Source: Acidihalobacter ferrooxydans (GTDB lineage: Bacteria; Pseudomonadota; Gammaproteobacteria; DSM-5130; Acidihalobacteraceae). Taken from it: 64,000 nucleotides of DNA. The stretch lies in assembly GCF_001975725.1 (NCBI RefSeq), contig NZ_CP019434.1, positions 1,265,041 to 1,329,040 on the forward strand, given 5' to 3'. A program made the position numbers and the translations under genes. Shown in pieces: positions 23,628-38,077 of this stretch (the first letter of the stretch is position 1; the number at the start of each line of letters is the position of its first letter). The notes under the pieces are model-generated. The model had not been told where the DNA came from, did no database searches, and was given only the letters and a program-made list of their open reading frames with translations.

Positions 23628-24847
<1,220 letters not shown>

Positions 24848-24887
24848 CTCAAACAAAACAGTCTCCGGAATACCCGGGGCGGTTCAT

Positions 24888-25802
24888 CATGCGGTTAGCT
24901 CTAAGCTTGTCACACTCACGCATGTGGCCTACTCAGAGCATAGCGTGCCTCCAACTCTGAGCGCATTTATCTCAACGGTCGCGCTATTTATGTTTGCTTA
25001 CGGTGGATTGACTGCAGCAACATCACTGGGTGGTGAGACTTTCAATCCCGAGAAGAATATGCCAAGAGGGATTGTCGCTGGTTGGGCTATCGCGCTAGTA
25101 GTGTACACGTTGATAGCTTTTGCATTGTTCAACGCGGTGCCCTACCAACTCGCGATAAATTTGGCGAATACGCATCATGCCTATTTGTTGACCGCCCCTG
25201 CACTGGTTGGTTTGATGCAGAGCAAAGGGGTTGCCGTTTTCCTTAATGTGTTAGTGACCTTAATCGTGATCAAAACACTTGCTCCGGTATTATTGGATGC
25301 CAGCCGTTACCTGTATGCGTGGTCGGAAGATGGGCTTGTCACGGACAAGATTAGAGCAGTGAACAGTCGCCATGTTCCGGTGGTTGCGTTGGTCATAACA
25401 GCGGGCATCGGTAGCTTATTTTTGTTGGACGCCGTTTATGCAGGATGGGCTATCGCAGTGGTCATTCGTGCGACTAGCGTGGCTGCAACATTCGCGACGC
25501 TTGGACTAGGTACGCTGATGCTGAGCTGGTGGCCACAGTGGCGAGAATCGCGTCCTTGGGCGACCCGTGTTACAGAGGGCGGGTTGATTAAATGGCTTTC
25601 CGTCCTTGCGATTATCATCGGGTTCCTGCTGATCGCCTCTGTCATCAATTCACCCGGTAAGCCTTGGTATTATCAACCGTGGTTTCAGGTTAGTGTGTCG
25701 TGGTTGATCGCATTAAGCTTACTAGGTTACGCGATGGTTAGCAGACGTGTGCAAGCGGGCGGGAGTTTGACGGAAAGATTTAGAGCCCCCCCTGAAGACT
25801 GA
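24888..25802 (+). pseudogene. 5'-truncated amino-acid permease (APC superfamily)
   Basis: Immediately after the IS3 right end an open frame continues with about 300 residues of an APC transporter: FMFAYGGLTAATSLGGETFN and PEKNMPRGIVAGW are the conserved helix 6-7 region, followed by several hydrophobic segments. The first five or so helices and the start codon are missing. The frame reads through from an antisense-like frame of orfB, but that fusion is accidental. Base composition is lower in GC than the backbone. The truncation coincides with the IS boundary. Confidence 0.82.
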
Positions 25803-28190: not shown

Positions 28191-29117
28191 ATGCCTTTTG
28201 ATCCAACTCCAGAATTCATGTCGATCATCTGCGATTTGAACCGAAACCCCGCACGCATCGATCCAAAATACTTCTATGACGATCATGGGAGCGCTCTGTT
28301 CGAACAAATCACCCGTTTGCCGGAATATTACTTGACACGTACAGAACTGACCATCCTCGACAAATATGGTTCACAGATCAATCATGTCATAGGACAAGGC
28401 GTTTCACTTATCGAGCTCGGTGCAGGCAATTGTGAAAAATCCAGGGCACTGTGCAAACACATCCGCCCCGTTCATTTTGTGGCTATCGATGTCGCCGAGG
28501 AATTTGTATCTGAAGGTGTCAGGAGTCTGGAATCACTGCATCCTCGACTGGTCTGTCATGCGGTGGCTGCCGACTTGGCCAAACCCATCGAGCTACCAGC
28601 GGGCATACCGTCTTCGAAACGCATCGTGTTTTATCCCGGCTCATCCATCGGCAACTTCGATCCGGAAAGTAGCCGTGCTTTGTTAGAAAGGTGTCATGCC
28701 TTGCTAGGTGCGGAAGATTGGTTGCTCCTTGGTGTGGATTTGGTCAAGGATCCGGAAATCCTGGAGGCTGCATACAACGACAAGAAAGGTGTTACGGCAC
28801 AATTCAACAAGAATGTATTAATTCATATAAATCGCTTGATCGGGAGTGATTTTGATCCAGACCAGTGGCGTCATGTCGCCTTCTACAATGCTGTGGATTC
28901 ACGTATGGAAATGCATCTGGAGGCCAAATCCGATACGGTTGTGAGTTGGCCTAGCGGGAAACGTAAATTCCACATGGGCGAGGGAATTCACACAGAGAAC
29001 AGTTACAAGTTCACGCTCAAGACCCTGAAAGACCGTTTACGACAGGCTGGGTTCCAGCACACGAACGTCTGGATGGATGAACACCAATGGTATGCCCTCA
29101 CCTTGAGCAGGGCCTGA
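28191..29117 (+). CDS. egtD: L-histidine N-alpha-methyltransferase EgtD
   Basis: Cytoplasmic SAM-dependent enzyme, 308 aa, trimethylating the amino group of histidine to hercynine, the first step of ergothioneine synthesis. Motifs: YDDHGSALFEQITRLPEYYL and TRTELTIL at the N-terminus, the SAM loop LIELGAGNCEKSRAL, then FYPGSSIGNF, and the C-terminal IHTENSYKFTLKTL typical of EgtD. Length is close to the usual 320. An AAGGAAAGGG site precedes the ATG. EgtB follows after 18 bp. Confidence 0.93.
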   Translation: MPFDPTPEFMSIICDLNRNPARIDPKYFYDDHGSALFEQITRLPEYYLTRTELTILDKYGSQINHVIGQGVSLIELGAGNCEKSRALCKHIRPVHFVAIDVAEEFVSEGVRSLESLHPRLVCHAVAADLAKPIELPAGIPSSKRIVFYPGSSIGNFDPESSRALLERCHALLGAEDWLLLGVDLVKDPEILEAAYNDKKGVTAQFNKNVLIHINRLIGSDFDPDQWRHVAFYNAVDSRMEMHLEAKSDTVVSWPSGKRKFHMGEGIHTENSYKFTLKTLKDRLRQAGFQHTNVWMDEHQWYALTLSRA

Positions 29118-29135
29118 TGGATAGAGATTTGTTGC

Positions 29136-30380
29136 ATGGATAATTCCTCATTACATCTTCGTTATCAATCGATTCGTGATCGTTCTGTTGCGTTGACCCA
29201 TCCCTTGTCACCGGAAGACTGTTGTGCGCAGTCCATGATGGAAGCCAGCCCTGCAAAGTGGCATTTGGCCCATACCACTTGGTTTTTTGAGACCTTCGTT
29301 CTGGAGCCTAGCGAGAAACGATTCAAGCCCTACAATCGCGCATATAGGGAGCTTTTCAATTCTTATTACAATGGGGTCGGGGATCAATATCCCAGGCCGA
29401 ATCGTGGCTTGCTGACCCGGCCAAGCATGGAAGAGGTCCTTGCCTATCGCTCCGTAGTCGATCAGTGCGTCCTGGATTTAATCGACAAAGATGCCCTTGA
29501 TGCAAAGCAGCGCGCACTGATGACACTGGGATTGAATCATGAACAACAGCACCAGGAGCTTTTGCTGACCGATATCAAGCACTTGTTTTCATTCAATCCG
29601 CTGGATCCCGTCTATGACGATAGTCAGCACAGTGTCGGTCAAAATCCACCTCCTCCTATGACATGGATGTCCTACTCTGGAGGACTTACCAAGATTGGTT
29701 ATGATGGCGATGAATTCTGCTTCGATAATGAGCTGCCCCTTCATCTTTCATATCTGCACGATTACCAACTGGCTTCTCGTCTGATCACCAATGGTGAGTA
29801 TCTGGATTTCATGGAGGATGGTGGATATGAAAATCCTTTGTTATGGCTGGCCGAAGGATGGGACTGGCGGCAACGACATGCCCTCACTCATCCTCTGTAT
29901 TGGTGCTGGAAGGATGGAGCGTGGTTTGAGTTCACCTTGCACGGCCTGATTCCTTTGGACATGTTTTCTCCGGTAGTGCATGTGTCCTATTACGAAGCCG
30001 ATGCCTATACCCGGTGGTCGGAAGCCCGATTGCCGACCGAGATAGAGTGGGAACATGCCGCAAAATATCATCCCGTCGAAGGCCATCTCGCCGAATCTGG
30101 CCTCTTCCATCCCAGAACAGTCCAGGACAGTGGTTCACATCAGTTTTTCGGCGACACATGGGAATGGACGCAGTCTAGTTACTCTCCCTACCCGGGTTAC
30201 CGTATAGGCATTGGTGCCGTGGGCGAATACAACGGCAAGTTCATGGTCAACCAATATGTGCTCCGCGGCGGTTCTTGTGTGACGCCATCCAGCCACATTC
30301 GGCCCAGTTACCGAAATTTCTTTCCTGCCGACGCACGTTGGCAGTTCTCCGGAATACGTTTGGCGAAAATGCCGGACTGA
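29136..30380 (+). CDS. egtB: EgtB-type sulfoxide synthase (ergothioneine biosynthesis)
   Basis: Non-heme iron enzyme of 414 aa, joining hercynine to a thiol (gamma-glutamylcysteine or cysteine) with O2. The DinB-like N-terminal domain supplies the iron ligands: one His in HLAHTTWFF near residue 46 and the HX3HXE motif in LNHEQQHQELLL near 135. The C-terminal FGE-sulfatase domain has LPTEIEWEHAAKY, WEWTQSSYSPYPGY and ending VLRGGSCVTPSSHIRPSYRN. No fused methyltransferase, so not OvoA. No egtA, egtC or egtE is nearby, so the thiol donor cannot be deduced. Confidence 0.9.
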   Translation: MDNSSLHLRYQSIRDRSVALTHPLSPEDCCAQSMMEASPAKWHLAHTTWFFETFVLEPSEKRFKPYNRAYRELFNSYYNGVGDQYPRPNRGLLTRPSMEEVLAYRSVVDQCVLDLIDKDALDAKQRALMTLGLNHEQQHQELLLTDIKHLFSFNPLDPVYDDSQHSVGQNPPPPMTWMSYSGGLTKIGYDGDEFCFDNELPLHLSYLHDYQLASRLITNGEYLDFMEDGGYENPLLWLAEGWDWRQRHALTHPLYWCWKDGAWFEFTLHGLIPLDMFSPVVHVSYYEADAYTRWSEARLPTEIEWEHAAKYHPVEGHLAESGLFHPRTVQDSGSHQFFGDTWEWTQSSYSPYPGYRIGIGAVGEYNGKFMVNQYVLRGGSCVTPSSHIRPSYRNFFPADARWQFSGIRLAKMPD

Positions 30381-32813: not shown

Positions 32814-33326
32814 TCATGCTAAAGCCAGCAAGTCATCGGAAGCCCGTAATTGCTGAGTCATCTTCATCCGGAGAACAGCCGCGCAGCGTTCATGTTCGAC
32901 CGCCAACCGTGCAAGCAAATCCGCACTTTTGGCTAATTCGGATTGATGCAGGGCCTTGAGCGCTAGCGCCATGCCTTCAAGGCGATTCGCGCATACACTC
33001 CATTCCCCGGTTTCGTGGCGAGCTTTCTTCCAATCCGACTGGAAGGTCCGCTCGACCGTCTGTTGTATTCTTTCTTGAGGAGTCAGAGGTGTCTGCATTG
33101 CGCTAAGCCGTGGCTGTCTGGTTTGGAAGAGTTCCTCCATCCAATAGTGTCCTGCAAGCGCAGCTAGCAGATCAATATTCTTGTGATCCACACCGGCTAC
33201 GGCCAACCCCAAAGACAGACCGTACAACGTGCTGTGCGCCACGCACCAACCAGACACATCGGCATCTTGCCATAGCTCAACAAAAAAGGATTCCAGTGCC
33301 TGGTGTTCTTTAGTCGTCTCCATCAT
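32814..33326 (-). CDS. Conserved-looking helical protein, unknown function
   Basis: About 170 residues, mostly helical and soluble, with no signal peptide. Repeated acidic and hydrophobic heptads (LESFFVELWQDADVSGWCVA; LEGMALALKALHQSELAKSA) suggest a helical bundle. The start is one of two adjacent ATGs (33326 or 33323) after a strong AGGAGGAG site, which argues for a real gene. It follows the cytochrome b genes by about 160 bp on the same strand but could be separate. Family not recognised. Confidence 0.6.
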   Translation of the reverse strand: MMETTKEHQALESFFVELWQDADVSGWCVAHSTLYGLSLGLAVAGVDHKNIDLLAALAGHYWMEELFQTRQPRLSAMQTPLTPQERIQQTVERTFQSDWKKARHETGEWSVCANRLEGMALALKALHQSELAKSADLLARLAVEHERCAAVLRMKMTQQLRASDDLLALA

Positions 33327-33486
33327 CTTCTCCTCCTGTGGGGTAGATAACAAGCGATCCGGTTCGTAGTTCTTGGGCGGTTGTATCGGGGTTCCGATAC
33401 CGGTCAGGGTGCGAGCCTTCTATCCATTTGATGAAAGCATGTAGAATTATCCAAATTAAATCGGCGCAATAAACGTGACATTTCGT

Positions 33487-34482
33487 TCATCTTTCGGCGG
33501 TACTCCGTACCGGGTGGCTGGGATCTCCGCTGGGATAACGCGCATACCAATCCCGCCAAATAATGCGGTACACCGGAATCAAATAGGGGATGCGCCGCAG
33601 TAGAGGATTGAAAGGCACGGTGATGCCGAGTAACAGTAGGCCAGCAAAAATGAGAAAGGCAATGAGGTCTGCGTTCGGTGAATTGGCGATGGGGCCGAGT
33701 TGGTACCAGAACGAGTAGGACCACAACCACCAGGCACCAGGCCAGGGGCCAGCCATGTGCGTCATGCCCCATTGATAACCTTGCTCGTGAAAATGAGTTG
33801 CCACTGTACCCATAATATTCCCGCCTAGATACAGCAAGGCGCGAGTGTAGTCCGTCTCATAAGGTGCGAGTTTTGGATTCGTGTTGTAAGTCAGGGCGGC
33901 TTCCAGCAAACCGGCACGGGCGAATTTCAGCATGCCGTCCATCAGTACCGGAACCGGGCCGTAATCCCCCGTAGGCAGAATCAATCGTCCGTTTTGCACT
34001 TTGGTCTTGTGCAGCGCGGCGGTGTAGCTCGTGTCCCAGGCCATTTGTTGTTTTGGGCTGGCTTTTTGATAGGCTTCCAGTGCAGTCGCTACGGCTGAAT
34101 TCAGCTGTGCAATTTGGTGTAGCGGTTGCATCACCAGATCCACTTTAGCGTTGAGAGGGAATGTCACACCGGACCAGCAGGCCAAACAAAGGGCACCAAT
34201 GTGCTGAGCATTGGCGTAGTTGTCGGTGAAGGGAGGGCCGTAGGTCTGCAGACTGCTAGTGCCGTCGAAATACGATACTGTCCTCTTCAGGAAGGCCAAT
34301 GGCGCTTTATTCGCCACCTCCTTGATCGTCAGAGGCCAGTAATTCTGTCCTGGAAATCCCCAGAACGCCGCCAGAAAGACTACTACGGCCAAGATCCCGG
34401 CCATAACCATCAGGCCCTCGCGCACCATGTCGTAGGGCTTCATTGGGATTCCCTGAAGATTTTTATCAGAAAGCTCGCTCAT
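33487..34482 (-). CDS. Cytochrome b C-terminal-like membrane subunit with large insert
   Basis: Membrane protein of 331 aa. A first hydrophobic helix (VMAGILAVVVFLAAFWGFPG) is followed by a soluble insert of about 170 residues (probably periplasmic) containing LCLACWSGVTFP, then two or three C-terminal helices and PFNPLLRRIPYLIPVYRII. This resembles the cytochrome b/b6 C-terminal half (subunit IV-like) as seen in some chemolithotrophs. I see no PEWY quinol-site motif; PWPGAWW may occupy that place. The start overlaps the preceding stop as ATGA, giving a three-gene coupled unit. Confidence 0.65.
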   Translation of the reverse strand: MSELSDKNLQGIPMKPYDMVREGLMVMAGILAVVVFLAAFWGFPGQNYWPLTIKEVANKAPLAFLKRTVSYFDGTSSLQTYGPPFTDNYANAQHIGALCLACWSGVTFPLNAKVDLVMQPLHQIAQLNSAVATALEAYQKASPKQQMAWDTSYTAALHKTKVQNGRLILPTGDYGPVPVLMDGMLKFARAGLLEAALTYNTNPKLAPYETDYTRALLYLGGNIMGTVATHFHEQGYQWGMTHMAGPWPGAWWLWSYSFWYQLGPIANSPNADLIAFLIFAGLLLLGITVPFNPLLRRIPYLIPVYRIIWRDWYARYPSGDPSHPVRSTAER

Positions 34483-35105
34483 GATGATTGACTCGTGTTG
34501 TTTTTGGTTTCTTTTTTCTTGTCTATTACAATCGGGCGTACCGGGCTTTCACTACACACAAAGGTAATGTGCGCCATGACAAGGATCAGAATCAACGCGG
34601 CGAAAAACACGATGTGCAGAGTCAATACGGTGGTGTAATTCAACCAGCCCAGCCAGCCCAGACCGATTGCACTGAACGCGTCTTTGCCTTGCTGGGAGTT
34701 CCACTGTGCATCCCAGTTTCCCTGCAGCAATGGGCCTGTAATACCTGAAAAGATGCTGACCGCGAACATGGCCCAGCCGTTCATCCAGGTACGCGCGCGT
34801 CCATCGCGCCATGCGGCTTTAAAGAACTTGAAAGTCATGTGCAACATGACCGACAGATAGAACACCTCAACTGACCAGAAATGCATGGCATTGACAAACT
34901 CCCCTAACGCCGTGAAATGCCACCAATCAGGCCCGAATATTGTCAGAACAACGCCCGTAACGAAGATCACGGCGAGCGAGGATATGGTCATCGTGCCAAA
35001 AAAGTACGCGAATGAATTGACATAAGCGGGCATTTGCGTGGGCAGCAAATCCTCCAGGGTCATGTGTTTTTTGATGGTGTTCTGAAGAAATTTATCGATA
35101 TTCAT
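34479..35105 (-). CDS. Cytochrome b N-terminal-like subunit, diheme (b6-type)
   Basis: Membrane protein of 208 aa with four hydrophobic helices, the size of cytochrome b6. Two histidine pairs for two b-type hemes are visible: MHFWSVEVFYLSVMLHMTF (H-x13-H) and LHIVFFAALILILVMAHITF (H-x14-H), the latter spacing as in b6f-type proteins. The ATG at 35105 has a GGAGGAT site and overlaps the stop of the small gene upstream as ATGA; the open frame extends further upstream but without homology. Probably a quinol-linked electron-transfer subunit. Confidence 0.85.
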   Translation of the reverse strand: MNIDKFLQNTIKKHMTLEDLLPTQMPAYVNSFAYFFGTMTISSLAVIFVTGVVLTIFGPDWWHFTALGEFVNAMHFWSVEVFYLSVMLHMTFKFFKAAWRDGRARTWMNGWAMFAVSIFSGITGPLLQGNWDAQWNSQQGKDAFSAIGLGWLGWLNYTTVLTLHIVFFAALILILVMAHITFVCSESPVRPIVIDKKKETKNNTSQSS

Positions 35106-35317
35106 CTCTGATCCTCCTGATCTTCCACAGAGTGATATTGACGCCGGGTTTCGGCATCCATTTCCATGAACTCGGGAATGCGCGCATAGATGCCAGCGCA
35201 TAAAATGAGCAGCCAGATCCCCCAAAACGCCACGTTGGGCCAGACCCAATAAATGATGCCGACATGAACCGCCGGCGCGGCGGCCTGATGCATCAGTGAA
35301 AGCGAATCCAAAGCCAT
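35102..35317 (-). CDS. Small single-helix membrane protein of the cytochrome b module
   Basis: A 71-residue protein with one transmembrane helix (VWPNVAFWGIWLLILCAGIY), a short N-terminal segment with a His (APAVHVGIIYW) and a charged, probably cytoplasmic tail. An AAAGGAG site precedes the ATG. Coupled by ATGA to the cytochrome b subunit, so likely a structural or heme-ligating accessory of the complex. No family recognised. Confidence 0.7.
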   Translation of the reverse strand: MALDSLSLMHQAAAPAVHVGIIYWVWPNVAFWGIWLLILCAGIYARIPEFMEMDAETRRQYHSVEDQEDQR

Positions 35318-35376: not shown

Positions 35377-36072
35377 CTATCGCGACATCGGGACCTCTCC
35401 CGCCGCGGGGTTGGCCAAAAGTGAGACTTCAACGCCTGCCGTAAGCAGGCAGCCAACGGCGTACGCTTGCGCCTTCCGGAACAGTGTCTCGCCCCAAACT
35501 AACCAGATGACGCGTTCACCACGATGGATGGATTCGATGACGTCCTGCAAAACTGCATCCGGCAGTCGCCAGGCGTCATCAACACCAGGAAGGGGCAGGC
35601 GCCTGGCGTGCAAAGAGACCTCCCTCAGCCATGCGTCGGGGAGGCCGGCCTCATACAGCACGCAGTCGGCGCGCCTGATCCGGTGTCGCAGCTTCGGTAC
35701 GATGAGCGCATCTGGAGAAAGAGACATCTGAATCAGAGTCAAGGGTGAAGTCTCTGGAAAGCTTCGTGCATCCGAACGGGGCCATACCAACGGTAGCCAG
35801 CGACCATCTATCTGTGCCAGTTCTGCTCCGCCGAGCAGACTGTTCCAGAAGTTCCGCCGCGCATGAGTCATTCTCCGACGACAGTTGATTGCTGCACGGG
35901 ATTTCTGTGTCAAAAGAACCGTGCGGCATGCTTCAAGTCTGTGCGCCCAATGCAGAGAAAAGCGGGTAAGGGACGGTTGAAATTCAGCCACTGCAGACAG
36001 CGGGAACAGGCGGCGACCGGTTACCGGTGATAAGGAATCTGTAGATATTGAAATTTCGTGTCTCCAGCCCAT
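35377..36072 (-). CDS. Degenerate SUMT/CysG-like (tetrapyrrole methylase fold) protein
   Basis: Protein of 231 aa. The central and C-terminal parts follow the uroporphyrinogen-III methyltransferase plan: LRHRIRRADCVLYEAGLPDA in place of the ALRLLQQADVVLYD motif, and ESIHRGERVIWLVWGETLF in place of the VRLKGGDPFIFGRG motif. The glycine-rich SAM motifs VGAGPGDP and GGDP are missing, and the protein is short, so SAM binding is doubtful. It lies 60 bp before the cytochrome b module on the same strand and diverges from a CysB-like regulator, a sulfur-assimilation context. Function not assigned. Confidence 0.5.
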   Translation of the reverse strand: MGWRHEISISTDSLSPVTGRRLFPLSAVAEFQPSLTRFSLHWAHRLEACRTVLLTQKSRAAINCRRRMTHARRNFWNSLLGGAELAQIDGRWLPLVWPRSDARSFPETSPLTLIQMSLSPDALIVPKLRHRIRRADCVLYEAGLPDAWLREVSLHARRLPLPGVDDAWRLPDAVLQDVIESIHRGERVIWLVWGETLFRKAQAYAVGCLLTAGVEVSLLANPAAGEVPMSR

Positions 36073-36199
36073 GCGTTTGGCCTCATTGATGGATTGACCT
36101 CGATCCTAGTTGACCTTGCTGAGATTTCAAAAGAATTATTATCAATATTGTTATATTATTTTGGAATAAAGCCTGTGCCCCTCTATGGATTTTTGCCCC

Positions 36200-37180
36200 A
36201 TGAATCTGCGTCAAGTTCAGTATGTGTGCGCCGTAGTCGAACATGGCTTCAGTGTTACTGCTGCCGCCACGGCCCTGTTCACGTCGCAACCAGGGATTAG
36301 TAAACAGATACGCTTACTGGAAGAGGAGCTTGGTGGTCAGATTTTTGAGCGCTATGGCAGACAGTTGCTCCGCTTGACCGAGTTCGGTCAGGCGCTTCTT
36401 CCCTTTTTTCGGCGCTGCCGCACGGAAGCGGAAAACATTCGCCGCGCCGCCAAAGATCTTACAAATCCAGAAACGGGAGATTTGTCGATCGCTACCGCAC
36501 ATAATCAGGCGCGCTACGCGTTGCCTCCAGTGATCGCAGCGTTCCGTCGGCGTCATCCCAGCACGCGTCTACATCTGCACCAGGGCGAACCTGACCAGAT
36601 TGCTGAGCTGGCCGCCGAAGGTAGGGTCGATTTTGTTATCGCCACCGAAGGTCTGGATCATTTCTCTGACTTGGTTCTCTTGCCATGTTATCGGTGGGGG
36701 CGGGCGGTAGTGGTGCCTCGGGGACATCCGCTGGAGGCCGCTTCTCCATTTACCCTGGCTACCCTGGCACGCTACCCCCTAGTCAGTTACACCTTCGGCT
36801 TCGGCAGCCAATCCGGGATCTATGCGACCTTTGCTCGTCGTCAGCTTTCACCGGAGCTGGCGCTTACCGCTCCGGACACCGAGGTCATTAAAACCTATGT
36901 TCGTCAAGGCCTCGGAGTCGGCTTGATTGCCAAAATGGCTTATGATCCCGACCGCGATTCCGATTTGAGTTGTCTGGATGCCGGGCATCTGTTCCCCTTG
37001 GAGACGACTAGCATCGGCTTGCGCCATGGGTTGGCGCTGCGCGGGTACATGTATGATTTCATCCACCTGTTCGCCCCGCATTTCGATCGCGTGGGTATCG
37101 AGGTTTTCCTGCAGGCCCATGAACCTCAGAAACAGCAACGCTTGTTTCGGGCGCACCTGGCCTATCTGAGTGTGCGCTAA
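36200..37180 (+). CDS. cysB: LysR-family regulator, CysB/Cbl type
   Basis: Transcription factor, 326 aa (CysB is 324). The helix-turn-helix is FSVTAAATALFTSQPGISKQ near the N-terminus, followed by the CysB pattern IATAHNQARYALPPVIAAF, EGRVDFVIATEGL, LVLLPCYRW and VIKTYVRQGLGVGLIAKMA. In E. coli CysB senses O-acetylserine/N-acetylserine and controls sulfur assimilation. I chose ATG 36200 (MNLRQVQYV, like MKLQQLRY of CysB). It diverges from the SUMT-like/cytochrome b genes, which it may regulate; this is inference. Confidence 0.88.
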   Translation: MNLRQVQYVCAVVEHGFSVTAAATALFTSQPGISKQIRLLEEELGGQIFERYGRQLLRLTEFGQALLPFFRRCRTEAENIRRAAKDLTNPETGDLSIATAHNQARYALPPVIAAFRRRHPSTRLHLHQGEPDQIAELAAEGRVDFVIATEGLDHFSDLVLLPCYRWGRAVVVPRGHPLEAASPFTLATLARYPLVSYTFGFGSQSGIYATFARRQLSPELALTAPDTEVIKTYVRQGLGVGLIAKMAYDPDRDSDLSCLDAGHLFPLETTSIGLRHGLALRGYMYDFIHLFAPHFDRVGIEVFLQAHEPQKQQRLFRAHLAYLSVR

Positions 37181-37306
37181 GGATGCATTGGTTGGCGGAG
37201 TCGAGCCGTAGAACACCGCGGCATGTGTCGCGCCGTTTCGCGGCGCAAACACGCCTCAAAGGAACCCACGTCCACACCCCTCAGGGGGCATCACGTCCTG
37301 GGCCCG

Positions 37307-38077
37307 TCACTGTACTTCAAGCCGCCGCGTGCGCTGCAGGATGAAGCTGGCTTCGAACCGGTCGTCGTGACGAATCAGGCATAGTGTGGAACGGTGCCGG
37401 CTGAGGATGTAGTTCGACAGAGACAAGTCTAGAGTCATACCGTCGTTGGCAGGTGGCTTCTGCGGGCAGCGGTTACAGATGCAGAGCTTGACCTGTTTGC
37501 GCTGCAGTTGCACCTCCAGCTCAATATCGCCCACGCCGTGGTGCGAAGCATTGAGCAGCAGGTTCCATAGCACTTGCTGGATCAGTTCGGCGTCGCCTCG
37601 TACCGGCAGAGGACCTTCCGAGCTTCGAATGAGGAGTTGACGTTCTCCGCGCAAACCGGGTTCGAGCCGCGCCAGGAGCAGTAGGTCGTTCAACACATCG
37701 GTCAAGTCGAAATTTGCGTGTTCCACATTCTGGTGGCGGCACAGCATGCCCATGGTGTCAGCCAGATGATGGATGCGCCTGGCCTCGCCGCGTAGGGTCT
37801 GGGCAAACTGGCGCCTTTCCGGGGTGGCGCCCGCCTGTTCGCTGAGTGCGAAGGCGGCGTTAACCAGCGTGCTGAGGGGGTTATTGATTTCATGGATCAA
37901 GGCTGCGATGGCGTCCCGGTTGTCGAAGGAGTGGGCACTGGGTACCGGGGGAGGGCGCTGAAGCAGGGGTTTGATCCAGCTCCACACAGCATCTGGCCGC
38001 CAGGATGACACGGCATACACGGACTGTAGGATCCGCGATACCAACCTGTTTGTCGAGACCAAGAGAGAGTCTCCCAT
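37307..38077 (-). CDS. Histidine-kinase-like protein with degenerate ATP site
   Basis: Protein of 256 aa without transmembrane or sensor domain. It has an H box (LIHEINNPLSTLVNAAFAL, near residue 62) and an N box (ELIQQVLWNLLLNASHHGVG). The glycine-rich G1/G2 boxes (DxGxG, GxGxG) are not present: that region reads NRCPQKPPANDGMTLDL. It may therefore be an inactive kinase or a phosphotransfer/phosphatase partner. No response regulator lies next to it. An AGGAG site sits 8 bp before the ATG. Confidence 0.65.
   Translation of the reverse strand: MGDSLLVSTNRLVSRILQSVYAVSSWRPDAVWSWIKPLLQRPPPVPSAHSFDNRDAIAALIHEINNPLSTLVNAAFALSEQAGATPERRQFAQTLRGEARRIHHLADTMGMLCRHQNVEHANFDLTDVLNDLLLLARLEPGLRGERQLLIRSSEGPLPVRGDAELIQQVLWNLLLNASHHGVGDIELEVQLQRKQVKLCICNRCPQKPPANDGMTLDLSLSNYILSRHRSTLCLIRHDDRFEASFILQRTRRLEVQ

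Follow-up and report, generated by a model that had tools for sequence, protein, structure and literature searches.

The three genes analyzed here form a real, conserved and unclassified module, a relative of cytochrome b6 and subunit IV which, judged from sequence, lacks those hallmarks of complex III that were tested. The module lies in Acidihalobacter ferrooxydans, within a stretch of 64,000 nucleotides (the window, to which unprefixed positions refer) corresponding to bases 1,265,041-1,329,040 of a genome made up of a single contig of 3,448,835 bases (G000). The reading preferred, with moderate confidence, is that the three genes encode a quinone-linked diheme cytochrome b complex free of both Rieske protein and cytochrome c1. 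The subunits would assemble into a b6/subunit-IV-like core, through the two b haems of which the quinone pool would exchange electrons with a partner or substrate outside the cytoplasm. A domain predicted to reside in the ef loop, carrying a C-x-x-C-W motif and residues H230, M240 and H242, would take the place of Rieske and c1, serving as a docking platform or as a redox site of dithiol or metal type.

The genes reside on the minus strand between 33487 and 35317, and are joined by 4-base overlaps at both junctions, the ATGA coupling given in the preliminary description. The first gene (35102-35317) encodes a 71-aa one-helix subunit, which features a single hydrophobic stretch near residues 16-47 according to hydropathy, and had no convincing family match in a Pfam scan. 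It is followed by the genes for a b6-like diheme cytochrome b subunit (34479-35105, 208 aa) and for a subunit-IV-like protein with a large extracytoplasmic domain (33487-34482, 331 aa). None of the ORFs of the unit encodes a Rieske protein or c1, as originally noticed, and CxxCH motifs are missing from both larger subunits as well as from the selected window ORFs. The preliminary description had proposed to look for homologues with conserved gene order; seven copies were found in five genomes, the small subunit gene being located 5' of the b6-like gene, and the latter 5' of the third, in all seven.

The assignment of the second protein as a b6-like diheme subunit holds. The protein scores 39.3 bits against the Pfam family Cytochrom_B_N_2 (PF13631; cut-off 27 bits), a profile of the seven sequences matches cytochrome b6/QcrB proteins of solved structure in a PDB sequence search (best E 6e-9), and 95.8% of its length aligns with canonical cytochromes b when profiles are compared with each other (E 7e-9). 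Residues H75/H89 and H164/H179 are invariant in the seven copies, align to the canonical ligands, and are spaced by 14 and 15 residues, respectively, the spacings of b6-type proteins. Two bis-histidine haem b sites, on helices B and D, are accordingly predicted. The gap between the two ligand pairs measures 75 residues; the same gap spans about 86-87 residues in bc1 and b6f. As the inter-pair region is short, and the invariant polar stretch around Q128-K141 unusual, a canonical Qo pocket is unlikely.

The third subunit is more divergent. It had no match in a PDB sequence search, in a search of plasmid, phage and viral-contig records, or against PF00032 (Cytochrome_B_C), and none of the seven sequences gave a convincing match when scanned with Pfam and NCBIfam. 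Its residues 7-22 (KNLQGIPMKPYDMVRE) nonetheless align with the segment preceding helix E in canonical cytochrome b (GIPFHPYYTVKD). The profile of the third subunit was run against 204 ORFs, among which canonical cytochromes b gave higher scores than did other membrane proteins (Mann-Whitney p 0.0007); in all five alignments inspected, residues 4-44 pair with this "GIPFHPYxxVKD" segment together with helix E. Since individual helix-E scores are weak (no HMM score above 8.2 bits; E 0.01 with hhalign), homology to the C-terminal part of cytochrome b (pre-helix-E segment plus helix E) is probable, not proven.

Hydropathy places membrane helices near residues 23-41 and 273-291, with about 230 residues between them. 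By position, this stretch would correspond to the ef loop on the outer side, which in bc complexes is the docking region of Rieske and c1. The inserted domain extends in the alignments from about residue 44 to residue 247 (33742-34353), between helix E and the PGAWW motif; it is thus nearer to 200 residues than to the 170 or so originally given, the LCLACWSGV motif with its C99/C102 pair being where described. The CLACW core (residues 99-103, 34174-34188) is replaced by CPACW or CPNCW in other copies, C-x-x-C-W being invariant. Cysteine, histidine and methionine residues conserved in all seven inserts are C99, C102, M181, M184, M224, H230, M240 and H242. PGAWW (residues 248-252, 33727-33741; P248, A250, W251 and W252 invariant in the seven copies) is found where PEWY or PPWY is expected in cytochrome b, and is plausibly their equivalent. 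The absence of PEWY had been pointed out in the preliminary description. The motif is indeed missing, but its absence has no diagnostic value, as PPWY replaces PEWY in 15 of 19 canonical cytochromes b from related genomes.

AlphaFold models of the full third subunit and of the insert alone are of low confidence (pLDDT 54 and 57). Foldseek detected no significant match with these models, and the best Z obtained with VIA was 4.2. The C-x-x-C pair may also be structural, because the same C-x-x-C-W-x-G pattern is found in a TPR family. A TPR protein with CxxCWxG was met in genome G1004 as a match of 18.9 bits, a strength expected about once per roughly 1000 genomes scanned, and is kept as a lead only; several TPR relatives scored above most of 1400 shuffles. 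One such TPR protein, at L127:1174-2934, contains DPNCAMCWWGVAFALGPNIN, and its plasmid relatives have as neighbours genes for a cation-efflux protein and a putative sulfate exporter. A single weak profile match in G065 was discarded as a chance match within another gene.

Peptide patterns of the b6-like subunit, which catch close relatives only, were used to scan 84,980 species genomes; profile searches with the third subunit covered roughly a thousand genomes. The seven copies represent at most four independent lineages. Two copies each are found in the window genome and in an Acidihalobacter MAG (G398, 99% complete), one each in Acidithiobacillus sulfurivorans (G450, a draft), in the Acidithiobacillus-like G455 (one contig of 3.416 Mb) and in Oricola nitratireducens (G451), the G455 copy being nearly identical to that of G450. 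The Acidihalobacter paralogues form orthologous pairs, the two large subunits being 81-84% identical within pairs and 69-75% between pairs, and the duplication is therefore placed, by sequence comparison, before the split of the two genomes. dN/dS values for the two large subunits range from about 0.04 to 0.24 in diverged copies where computable, at synonymous sites saturated or nearly so, and indicate strong purifying selection. The scattered distribution and the presence of transposase genes nearby suggest horizontal transfer.

Upstream of the module, a divergent CysB-type LysR regulator (36185-37180, plus strand; NF009326 CysB, E 3.9e-120, 401 bits, below the equivalog cut-off of 436) is also found beside the module in the MAG loci L004 and L020. 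A sensor histidine kinase gene follows (37307-38077, minus strand; HisKA match). In L020, a response regulator and a rhodanese (PF00581) adjoin the kinase homologue, and both are missing beside the kinase gene of the window, between which and the regulator lies only 37180-37307. The downstream 179-aa gene (32814-33353, minus strand) has no family match, and is considered outside the conserved core because a homologue lies downstream in L004 and L020 only. Between regulator and module, a 231-aa ORF (35377-36072, minus strand) matches the sirohaem synthase dimerisation region weakly and below threshold. As no space is left for such an ORF beside the copy in the MAG (L004/L020), it has the look of an insertion or a gene remnant. 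Further away, the ergothioneine genes egtD and egtB (28191-30380) are found about 3 kb downstream of the module, and the ovothiol gene ovoA (L004:12460-14574) about 5 kb downstream of the module copy in the MAG, both copies having genes for thiol-histidines in their surroundings. An amino-acid permease at 23948-25802 looks truncated by insertion: its PF00324 match starts at profile position 180, and the C-terminal part that is left directly adjoins a transposase ORF.

Ordinary bc1 parts, the Rieske and c1 genes for which reside elsewhere, had been named at the outset as the finding that would undo a distinct complex; such parts could have been split by gene fission. Split b6/subunit IV genes do accompany Rieske genes in many other bacteria (PMC3578206), and Rieske genes are present elsewhere in the window genome. 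Yet the sole canonical cytochrome b operon of this genome, an unusual one at C1:965-968 kb, encodes a Rieske protein and a fused cytochrome b of its own, no further PF00032 match being found. This operon (L030:5108-7840) begins with an SDR gene, and a 245-aa membrane protein devoid of CxxCH or family match is encoded at the place expected for c1. Moreover, the Acidithiobacillus-type genomes G450 and G455 carry the module and gave no PF00032 match, third subunit included, and no bc-type Rieske match at E<=10, an absence which rests on homology thresholds; the sole Rieske-domain matches in the two are, by inspection, a NifU-like/Rieske fusion and a NirD-like protein. These searches largely refute the reading of the module as ordinary bc1 parts, which we regard as very improbable. 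The claim of a distinct complex is borne out to the extent that the module occurs in genomes in which neither a canonical cytochrome b C-terminal domain nor a bc-type Rieske was detected; the module is thus kept under selection in genomes apparently lacking Rieske and bc1. The lack of bc1 and Rieske in G450 and G455 agrees with the bc1 loss published for sulfur-only acidithiobacilli, bc1 (pet-I, pet-II) being confined to the iron/sulfur-oxidising Acidithiobacillus clade and having disappeared from the rest of the genus (PMC8528912). If Acidithiobacillus is considered by itself, the anti-correlation between module and bc1 is uninformative, many bc1-less genomes of the genus being also devoid of the module.

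In Acidihalobacter, the main rival partner of the module could be an orphan Rieske protein: the b6/IV-like core would pass electrons to an unlinked, Tat-exported, soluble Rieske in a rebuilt bc-type complex replacing the standard bc1 operons. In three genomes of the sister genus (G399-G401), the module is missing and 2-3 canonical cytochromes b are found; the standard bc1 operons of these genomes are absent from Acidihalobacter. An orphan Rieske gene with ligands kept is found in the window genome at C1:1514264 (TIGR01416, 144 bits vs. a cut-off of 97.4); the MAG G398 has two modules, two intact orphan bc-type Rieske genes and no PF00032 match. The N-termini of the Acidihalobacter orphan Rieske proteins read as Tat-like signals. 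On the other hand, Rieske genes never adjoin the module, bc-type Rieske proteins are undetected in the module-bearing G450 and G455, and the inserted domain is predicted to fill the ef loop, the Rieske docking place. A second orphan Rieske of the window genome (C1:872275-872802; L029:6267-6809) also exceeds the TIGR01416 cut-off; its ligand histidines are changed (CTF, CPCCG) and ligand residues thereby lost, so that it probably lacks a normal [2Fe-2S] cluster. On balance, a rebuilt bc-type complex seems unlikely. The Rieske- and c1-free complex that we prefer could run as a quinone reductase fed by periplasmic sulfur oxidation, electrons moving from the inserted domain to b_L, b_H and then quinone on the cytoplasmic side. 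This is one direction of the preferred reading, and taken by itself it is somewhat unlikely. The Acidithiobacillus hosts are sulfur oxidisers relying on quinol oxidases, A. thiooxidans A01 having quinol oxidases of the bd and bo3 types and lacking genes for an aa3 cytochrome oxidase (PMC4109375), and both the CysB-type regulator and the rhodanese near the MAG copy fit this direction; yet the module has no conserved enzyme gene as neighbour, its surroundings in Oricola are unrelated, and sequence does not tell direction. A reduced-sulfur or thiol/disulfide couple is tentatively put forward as partner, because the hosts are mostly acidophilic sulfur oxidisers, the divergent regulator is of CysB type, and rhodanese and two-component genes are found by the MAG copy.

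Complex III-type cytochrome b is normally described with the Rieske protein as functional core. The preferred complex, if real, would add another route wiring quinones to the periplasm, may explain how one acidophile lineage does without its standard bc1 operons, and would bring a further, uncharacterised member into the electron chains of sulfur oxidisers used in bioleaching. The broader proposal is more doubtful, namely that the module stands for a new class of cytochrome b complex, whose ef-loop domain, part of a single subunit and equipped with a C-x-x-C/His/Met site, replaced both Rieske and cytochrome c1, and which displaced the standard bc1 complexes in one Acidihalobacter lineage.

Among known systems, actinobacterial plasmid proteins annotated as "cytochrome b N-terminal domain" (e.g. 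WP_286404904.1) are 22-25% identical over the b6 part, which in them is fused to a short C-terminal part; they have no inserted domain and other neighbours. The idea of actinobacterial relatives was not confirmed, as plasmid records gave the b6 part only. ExtP (NF040969), encoded with ExtQ in the Geobacter ext (selenite/tellurite) cluster, is the best NCBIfam match of the b6-like subunit, and both are small, split cytochromes b; the score is nonetheless far below the equivalog cut-off (41 vs. 290 bits). Unlike the module, the ext cluster includes genes for multihaem cytochromes and for a Rieske protein, ExtO (PMC5877670). The module shares with proteobacterial and acidithiobacillal bc1 complexes (petABC, pet-I, pet-II) the haem-ligand pattern and the GIPxxPYxxV(K/R)(D/E) segment preceding helix E, whereas petABC complexes have a fused cytochrome b, the PF00032 domain that the module lacks, and genes for Rieske and c1. 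The likeness extends to cytochrome b6f and the split bc complexes, composed of b6, subunit IV, Rieske and cytochrome c or f: in the module too, cytochrome b is split after helix D, the b6-like subunit has four haem-ligand histidines with a 15-residue spacing in the second pair, a small one-helix subunit is present, and the protein corresponding to the second part starts with the pre-helix-E segment. Unlike these complexes, the module has no gene for a Rieske or c-type subunit in its unit, and features a predicted ef-loop insertion of about 200 residues, a shortened cd region, PGAWW in place of P-x-WY, and a third subunit with two predicted membrane helices only.
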